Shown here: piece after piece, positions 42,171-43,851 of the stretch
Layout: each line of letters starts with the position of its first letter
Numbering within the stretch: position 1 is the stretch's first letter
Source: an uncultured Synechococcus sp.
Lineage (GTDB): Bacteria > Cyanobacteriota > Cyanobacteriia > PCC-6307 > Cyanobiaceae
Assembly: GCA_913052185.1 (NCBI GenBank)
Contig: CAJXFG010000003.1
Location: 1 to 43,851 of the forward strand
Reading direction: 5' to 3'
Length of the DNA: 43,851 bases
The notes under the pieces: model-generated
What the model saw: only the letters and a program-made list of their open reading frames with translations
Told to the model about the DNA's origin: nothing
The model's database searches: none
Translations under genes and position numbers: made by a program

Positions 42171-42641
42171 ATGGTGCTCCAGCAGACGGTTGGGGAGGTG
42201 ATGTCCGCTCCGGTGCTGACGGTCACGGCAGAGACCCCTCTTCAGGATGCCGTCAGCCTGCTGAACGATCACCACGTGAGTGGGCTTCCTGTTGTTGATG
42301 GTCAGGGCGTTCTGGTGGGGGAACTCACTGAACAGGATCTGATGGTCCGCGAAAGCGGTGTGGATGTGGGGCCGTACGTGATGCTTCTCGACAGCGTGAT
42401 CTACCTGCGCAATCCGTTGAACTGGGATCGACAGGTGCATCAGGTGCTCGGCAACAGTGTCGGAGATCTGATGCACCGTGACAGCCACAGCTGTGAAGGC
42501 AGCCTTCCGCTGCCGAAAGCCGCTTCGATGCTGCATGACAAGGGAACACAACGTCTGATCGTTGTTGACGCGCAGCGCCGTCCGGTCGGCGTCCTCACCC
42601 GGGGTGATGTGGTGAGGGCGCTGGCATCAGCTCAGACCTAA
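42171..42641 (+). CDS. Tandem CBS-domain protein
   Basis: TVGEVMSAPVLTVTAETPLQDAVSLLNDHHVSGLPVVDGQGVLVGELTEQDLM ... LMHRDSHSCEGSLPLPKAASMLHDKGTQRLIVVDAQRRPVGVLTRGDVVRAL. Confidence 0.95.
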   Translation: MVLQQTVGEVMSAPVLTVTAETPLQDAVSLLNDHHVSGLPVVDGQGVLVGELTEQDLMVRESGVDVGPYVMLLDSVIYLRNPLNWDRQVHQVLGNSVGDLMHRDSHSCEGSLPLPKAASMLHDKGTQRLIVVDAQRRPVGVLTRGDVVRALASAQT

Positions 42642-43840
42642 CGCCGGGCAACCGGTTGAATCCGGATCGCGATCGGATTGATCAGACGGAAGTCCACCAT
42701 GTCGCCGACGCTCAATCCAGCGAAGACCTCGCTCTCCAGTTCAGGGCGGATGTCGAGCTTGTGAATCTTGCCCAGTGGACCGCGCAGCGTGATCTTGTGG
42801 TCGGTCCGTGACAGACGCACAACTTCTGCGGTTCCCGTGGCCATGGCGATACGGGCACCCGCCGGCACCGGACCGAAATCACGACCCAGCCGGCGGTCTT
42901 CTCGTTGAAGCATGAGCTCTGTCTGCCGGGAGCTGCGCAGATCAACCACCAGCCCCTGCAGCATTTCAATGTTCACCCGATCACCTGCTTTGAGACCCGC
43001 TTCCGTGGGGTCAACCGCAGACGTGAGCAGCATGCTGTGCCCCCGTGATCCCTTGACCTTGAGCAGCTTCTGTCCGGGGACCAGCCGTTCGATGGTGGCG
43101 GTCAGCTGAGCAAGCTCAAAGGCTTCAAGCAGCTCGCTTTTCAGGCTGACCTCCTGATCTGCGAGGGGGCTGATCAGCAAGGGTTCTCCCTCGCTGCGGT
43201 AGCCAGCGAGGGCCTGCCCCGTGGTGGATCGGGGCAATTTGCGCACATTCACAGCCAGTGGCTGGATCAATCGGAAATTCACGGTGTCGCCGACCTTGAT
43301 GCGATCAAAGGGGTTGGCTCCATCGGTGATCACCACATCAAGGTTGTTGATGCCACCGAGAGGCCCCAGAAGATCAATGCTGTTGTCCTGCCGATCGATG
43401 CTGACCACCTGAGCTGTGCCGGAGGCCAGGGCCACGCGCATGCCCTTTTTGAGCTTTCCCATGTCCTGGGGAAGAATGATGTCTTCGCGGTTGAAACTCA
43501 GGTCTTTGGTTGTGCTGGGTTCCAGCTCAACAACCAGGCCGTCGAGGATGGAGAGTGCGACTTCATCACCTTGCTCAAGGTCAAGGGGTTCGAGATCGAT
43601 CCCCACCGTGAGGATTTCCCTGTGCCCATGGGGATCGATCACCTCGATCACTTTCTCAGCGGGGAGTGCCGTGGTCACCGTGGCTCGCATCTCCGTGATC
43701 TCAAAGGCGGCCAGTTGTTCCGGGGAGAAGCCTGCGTTTGCTCTCTGAGGAACCCCGAACGAAACACCAAGAAGTGCGGCCGCAATCCACCTGGCAGGGA
43801 GCTTTTTCAGCGCGGAACCAAACGCCTGGAATTGAGTCAC
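42638..43840 (-). CDS. Secreted repeat protein with duplicated beta-rich modules (start may lie at or beyond the window edge)
   Basis: Signal peptide (WIAAALLGVSFGVPQRANA); two ~155-aa units, each ending L(N/D)(L/I)...(I/L)(K/S)VGD(T/M)V(N/D)FRLI(Q/N)P(L/I)A(V/I)(N/R)(V/I). GTG at 43840, frame open to window edge. Confidence 0.7.
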   Translation of the reverse strand: MTQFQAFGSALKKLPARWIAAALLGVSFGVPQRANAGFSPEQLAAFEITEMRATVTTALPAEKVIEVIDPHGHREILTVGIDLEPLDLEQGDEVALSILDGLVVELEPSTTKDLSFNREDIILPQDMGKLKKGMRVALASGTAQVVSIDRQDNSIDLLGPLGGINNLDVVITDGANPFDRIKVGDTVNFRLIQPLAVNVRKLPRSTTGQALAGYRSEGEPLLISPLADQEVSLKSELLEAFELAQLTATIERLVPGQKLLKVKGSRGHSMLLTSAVDPTEAGLKAGDRVNIEMLQGLVVDLRSSRQTELMLQREDRRLGRDFGPVPAGARIAMATGTAEVVRLSRTDHKITLRGPLGKIHKLDIRPELESEVFAGLSVGDMVDFRLINPIAIRIQPVARR

Positions 43841-43851
43841 AGGTCTCAGCA

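Follow-up and report, generated by a model that had tools for sequence, protein, structure and literature searches.

A gene at the very edge of a Synechococcus contig encodes a repetitive, apparently secreted protein, and the question is what this protein is built from, where it comes from and what it does outside the cytoplasm. The window analysed here (43,851 nucleotides) is an entire contig, C3, from the draft genome of an uncultured Synechococcus sp. that is 80.8% complete and divided into 210 contigs. The gene, here called the four-barrel gene after the predicted fold of its product, encodes 400 amino acids from a GTG start (42638..43840, stop codon at 42638-42640). It lies on the reverse strand, as do all of its parts given below, and its convergent left neighbour is a CBS-domain gene (42171..42641, forward strand) that forms the border of a two-gene cassette.

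The gene product and its internal repeats

As the initial annotation of this DNA had anticipated, sequence beyond the right edge is needed to fix the start of the gene. A second contig, C113 (L003), shares 55 bp with the right end of the window and is its continuation; positions 43841..43851 (unstranded) are the beginning of a divergent intergenic region that continues there. The ortholog L007 carries an in-frame stop immediately upstream of the equivalent GTG. This stop and the overlap with C113 make it very likely that the four-barrel protein starts at GTG 43840. Its first 36 residues were read by eye as a probable type I signal peptide ending in QRANA|GF (43733..43840), with a predicted mature protein of 364 residues. 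The signal peptide has no lipobox cysteine, and an A-x-A|GF-type junction is found throughout an alignment of 27 proteins (the window protein and 26 orthologs) and in 16 named records. The protein is predicted to be exported and soluble, in agreement with the secretion originally proposed. The mature N-terminal Gly-Phe (43727..43732) is invariant in the 27 aligned proteins, in which mature residues 3 and 4 vary, and it recurs in the 16 further named records, some of them from the same strains as the alignment.

The protein consists of two units, each composed of a module A followed by a module B, in the layout (A-B)-(A-B). Module A1 covers mature residues 12-73 (43514..43699) and module B1 residues 99-168 (43229..43438), with five predicted strands in A1 and five strands and a short helix in B1. 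A variable linker (residues 169-197, 43142..43228), delimited by the alignment, by dN and by pLDDT, separates them from module A2 (residues 206-268, 42929..43117) and module B2 (residues 294-362, 42647..42853); the module borders are taken from the structural models and from comparisons between modules. The two units, proposed at the outset as homologous stretches of ~155 amino acids, are 39.6% identical over 164 residues with zero gaps. Their BLOSUM62 local score of 310 was reached by 0 of 1000 shuffles, which average 32 (z = 50), and their ortholog profiles align in hhalign with 100% probability (E 4e-58). At the level of the modules A1 corresponds to A2 (z = 18, hhalign 99.8%) and B1 to B2 (z = 32, hhalign 99.9%). 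The best pair between the two types is B1 with A2 (z = 7.8, hhalign 90%), followed by A2 with B2 (z = 4.3, hhalign 77%), and A1 scores only z of about 1.5 and hhalign of about 5% with either B1 or B2. The suggested four modules are therefore certain as far as the A1/A2 and B1/B2 pairs are concerned, and the A-to-B resemblance, although weaker than claimed, is significant in sequence and is backed by the barrel pattern shared in the predicted structure.

The 27 full-length proteins align nearly gaplessly except in the linker between the units, which evolves fastest (dN 0.28 for mature residues 173-192 as opposed to 0.05-0.07 in the units) and is predicted with low pLDDT at residues 174-184. A dN/dS of 0.085-0.096 against three close orthologs indicates that the gene is under strong purifying selection. 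A search for variation in module copy number, recommended by the initial annotation, found none: each of the 27 aligned full-length proteins has exactly two units, the 2x2 layout is fixed, and the shorter copies encountered are decayed relics. The four-barrel gene is matched in 30 of 200 genomes of the order, confined to two genera (g1 and g9), and a profile search of 386 genomes across the cyanobacterial phylum revealed no credible relative outside these two. The named ortholog records are from marine Synechococcus and include WH7803. Two distant cyanobacterial matches (G496 and G212) were dismissed as chance since the regions concerned, a hisA/hisI-hisE-like frame and an MMPL-like frame read in antisense, encode no relative. 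No cyanophage copy of the gene was found in viral sequence libraries.

Small barrels and a proteobacterial family

Pfam and NCBIfam hold no family above cut-off for the whole protein, in keeping with the initial remark that a four-module architecture was unfamiliar in a picocyanobacterium, and sequence searches of the PDB with the single protein and with a profile returned nothing below E 0.1. Matches below the cut-offs to Pfam MazE, MS_channel, TOBE and Prot_ATP_ID_OB were read as generic small-barrel resemblance. DUF5666 (PF18914), likewise a small beta-rich bacterial domain, was matched below threshold by one of the 27 orthologs (E 0.0067). AlphaFold, given the 27-row alignment, models the whole protein with a pLDDT of 79.9 and a pTM of 0.66, and unit 2 alone with 81.6 and 0.63. 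The full model has the beta-rich character that had been proposed, with five strands per module in the strand order of an OB fold, and it shows repeated modules rather than a single continuous fold, just as the comparison of units revealed strong similarity in place of a lack of off-diagonal self-similarity. Foldseek searches retrieve IF-1 OB folds that match over single modules (probability 1.00, rmsd 2.6-3.1 over ~53 residues). In the viral structure library BFVD the matches are of a generic kind, to OB or long beta proteins, at a TM-score of about 0.1. The models thus indicate, with moderate confidence, that the modules are OB-type small barrels. Since full-chain TM-scores are low (0.1-0.3) and the arrangement of the barrels is unmatched, it is the module type alone that is supported and not the arrangement.

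The Foldseek matches of one unit against the PDB are headed by the molybdate di-barrels ModE and ModG (E 9e-4 to 1e-2), which like one predicted Synechococcus unit consist of two small barrels in tandem, and TOBE is a weak Pfam match in 10 of the 27 orthologs (best E 3e-4). These observations raise the possibility that the four-barrel protein binds an oxyanion in the manner of the MOP/TOBE proteins. The likeness to ModG and ModE is however structural and taken from a predicted model, and their TM-scores are only 0.2-0.3. ModG and ModE are cytoplasmic and MOP proteins bind molybdate at subunit interfaces, whereas the four-barrel protein is predicted to be exported. Its sequence homology moreover leads to a CusF-like two-module family and not to MOP proteins, and oxyanion binding is considered most improbable.

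This two-module family was reached with a probe made from a proteobacterial sequence pattern, which served as a lead and not as evidence. The probe retrieved real plasmid-encoded proteins of ~195 amino acids, some of which are also reached with the four-barrel protein itself as query (Cupriavidus, E 3e-3). They include WP_248324293.1 from Caballeronia, WP_115684006.1 from Cupriavidus, WP_051140265.1 from Azospirillum and WP_084199822.1 from Halioglobus, and their alignment comprises 11 natural sequences sampled from plasmids only. In hhalign the Synechococcus and proteobacterial alignments match with 98.4% probability (E 6e-15), with A pairing with A and B with B. Unit 1 aligns to the proteobacterial profile over 160 columns (97.3%, score 73.9) and unit 2 over 153 columns (98.8%, score 106.5), as compared with a maximum score of 22.8 for column-shuffled profiles. 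Conversely, the only find of an HMM of the proteobacterial set in the 386 cyanobacterial genomes is the four-barrel gene. The proteobacterial A-B proteins are exported, collinear with one Synechococcus unit and have a linker of similar length, but possess one unit where the Synechococcus protein has two, at about 25-30% identity. The periplasmic proteobacterial homologs suspected from the start do exist, as two-module A+B proteins and not as the single-module proteins that had been supposed. On sequence grounds the four-barrel protein is a duplicated variant of this periplasmic family. As an A+B protein matches one unit over its whole length, a single tandem duplication is favoured over the assembly of four single modules, and the simplest history would be that an A-B gene was acquired or retained and then duplicated once in tandem before g1 and g9 diverged.

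The same relatives bring into view CusF, a periplasmic copper/silver chaperone with a five-stranded OB-type module like those predicted here. Two of the four proteobacterial relatives tested exceed the gathering score of Pfam CusF_Ec (30.6 and 34.3 against 27), module B is weakly matched by plasmid-encoded CusF-type proteins, and three histidines of the mature four-barrel protein (H37, H232 and H324) are invariant, all of which would fit a CusF-like binder of copper or silver multiplied fourfold. In an alignment with the CusF-type protein L079, however, none of the four modules has the tryptophan and Met-x-Met loop that supplies the metal ligands of CusF (NWPAMTM in L079), and the A-B family lacks this loop as well. 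The four-barrel protein, with its four modules per chain, has no cysteine or methionine cluster, the genes adjoining it are not metal efflux genes, and neither the window protein nor its 26 aligned orthologs match CusF_Ec (PF11604) at E <= 1. Because it lacks the ligand loop as well as a match to the profile, the protein is not filed under CusF, and a role in metal binding is regarded as improbable.

The surroundings of two proteobacterial genes provide further observations. On plasmid p1 of Caballeronia sp. Sq4a (L069), the A-B gene is preceded on the same strand by DUF3300, DUF2950 and glycine-zipper genes, with which it possibly forms one operon. On a Halioglobus japonicus plasmid (L074), it lies two genes from those for a lytic transglycosylase and a LysM peptidoglycan-binding protein, a neighbourhood that hints at a wall context.

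A cassette with a divergent L,D-transpeptidase

About 78 bp from the GTG, and divergent from the four-barrel gene, contig C113 carries a gene (L003:123-596, forward strand) whose product, a minimal L,D-transpeptidase composed of a signal peptide and a YkuD domain, is predicted to be exported. Situated past the end of the window, this gene was out of reach of the initial annotation. Its YkuD domain (PF03734) is recognised with E 1.4e-26 and 94 bits against a cut-off of 23.4, and the catalytic motif IHG...SLGCIR is present in 35 of 35 non-truncated or motif-retaining copies checked. The gap between the two genes is ~70-160 bp in the genomes measured. In WH7803 (CT971583) the four-barrel gene occupies 1065825-1067009 and the divergent transpeptidase gene about 1067112-1067564. 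Beyond the transpeptidase follows a gene for a small secreted protein of ~94 amino acids (L003 about 631-912, joined coordinates 44427-44708, forward strand) with a KEMPEQ.FLDQVE motif and a CxxxP.xDCN.LF end, whose counterpart in G114 (L181) matches no Pfam family. The four-barrel and transpeptidase genes thus make up a cassette between the CBS-domain gene and the small secreted gene, the latter of which persists in several genomes that lack the cassette.

Both genes were searched for across g1 and g9, which together comprise 65 genomes. They are both intact in 42 genomes, in none is one found intact alone, eight contain wreckage, and 15, several of which are incomplete drafts, have neither. 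In g1 the intact four-barrel gene is present in 23 of 31 genomes and the adjacent transpeptidase subtype in the same 23; in g9 the numbers are 19 of 34 and the same 19, with the transpeptidase match in G093 crossing one TAG. This subtype has 64-100% identity, and other transpeptidase paralogs (about 40-58%) occur in nearly all genomes of the two genera. Seven carriers (G018, G020, G076, G094, G185, G530 and G531) have a second, closer paralog elsewhere in the genome (54-59%), which is confined to this group and is not known to adjoin another four-barrel gene. Three YkuD genes featured in work on nitrogen in WH7803 (SynWH7803_0567, 0607 and 0745) look, by their position, like other transpeptidase copies. 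The WH7803 locus, searched under guessed locus tags, found no mention in the literature outside supplements, and the main text of an exoproteome paper names no transpeptidase.

Relics of the four-barrel gene occur in G004, G034, G058, G540 and G541, and fused remnants of both genes, which look like single deletions, in G025, G543 and G071. In these three (G025 at L033 and L131) what is left of a truncated transpeptidase is joined tail to tail with the four-barrel gene at the end of the latter; the junctions in G025 and G543 look similar, both beginning at transpeptidase residue 51. A tree built from the CBS and PgsA proteins encoded on the flanks places the relics of G004, G034, G025, G058 and the named strain AG-670-B23 (L067) beside intact relatives, and by this tree at least five independent losses are forced by well-supported branches. 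Four g1 genomes have an empty site, and in three of these the CBS gene is directly followed by the small secreted gene.

That the two genes are kept or lost together in every genome examined suggests that they act together at the cell wall. The co-loss is weaker evidence than it seems, since neighbours can disappear in one deletion as in G025, G543 and G071. Two functionally unrelated genes might be lost jointly merely through adjacency, as both lie within about 2 kb and, being divergent, do not form one operon. Chance co-loss of this kind would nevertheless have to account for at least five separate losses alongside 42 joint retentions without one intact gene alone in 65 genomes. Both flanking genes are retained in most losses, so that the deletions repeatedly end at the cassette borders, and G541, which has already lost the transpeptidase, retains a four-barrel relic that is decaying through stops scattered along it. 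Adjacency as the whole explanation is therefore judged somewhat unlikely.

A possible role at the cell wall

It is proposed, with about an even chance of being correct, that the divergent transpeptidase has the four-barrel protein as a partner or client associated with the cell wall. Both proteins would be exported and the transpeptidase would act on peptidoglycan stems. The four-barrel protein would be a partner dedicated to this enzyme, whether as a client that becomes linked to peptidoglycan, possibly via its mature N-terminal glycine, or as an adaptor that binds the wall. L,D-transpeptidases are known to join exported proteins to peptidoglycan via lysine or via an N-terminal glycine or alanine (PMC8263019; PMC11841132; PMC12274547). 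A precedent for attachment through an N-terminal glycine exists (PMC8263019), and for Coxiella BbpA the muropeptide GM-AEJGGPDYVPAPS has been described (PMC11841132). Like the tethered proteins Lpp (Braun), BbpA/BbpB (Coxiella) and OutB (Dickeya), the four-barrel protein is predicted to be exported and is encoded beside an L,D-transpeptidase, and with BbpA it would share an N-terminal glycine, which in BbpA is the attachment site. These proteins are however outer-membrane barrels, lipoproteins or inner-membrane proteins, whereas the putative Synechococcus client is a soluble four-barrel protein. The predicted mature Gly-Phe, invariant next to variable residues 3 and 4, makes the protein a plausible client and a candidate for attachment at this point. 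Folding or cleavage of the signal peptide may instead account for the conservation of Gly-Phe, and no L,D-transpeptidase is annotated within 2.5 kb on either side of the proteobacterial A-B genes at the loci inspected, as far as these carry annotation. Covalent tethering through the N-terminal glycine is a speculative and rather unlikely form of the proposed partnership.

Through the link to the transpeptidase, what was a hypothetical protein becomes half of a pair that can be tested in the cultured model strain WH7803, for which gene inactivation is reported (PMC10651935), and the uncharacterised proteobacterial two-barrel family gains a home through its Synechococcus homolog. Most strains of the two genera of marine Synechococcus keep the four-barrel protein under strong purifying selection, yet it is gone from others, which points to a real difference in the envelope between close relatives. 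If tethering were true, an L,D-transpeptidase would here attach a protein to the wall in cyanobacteria, and marine Synechococcus would possess an optional wall protein layer whose two genes come and go as one unit.
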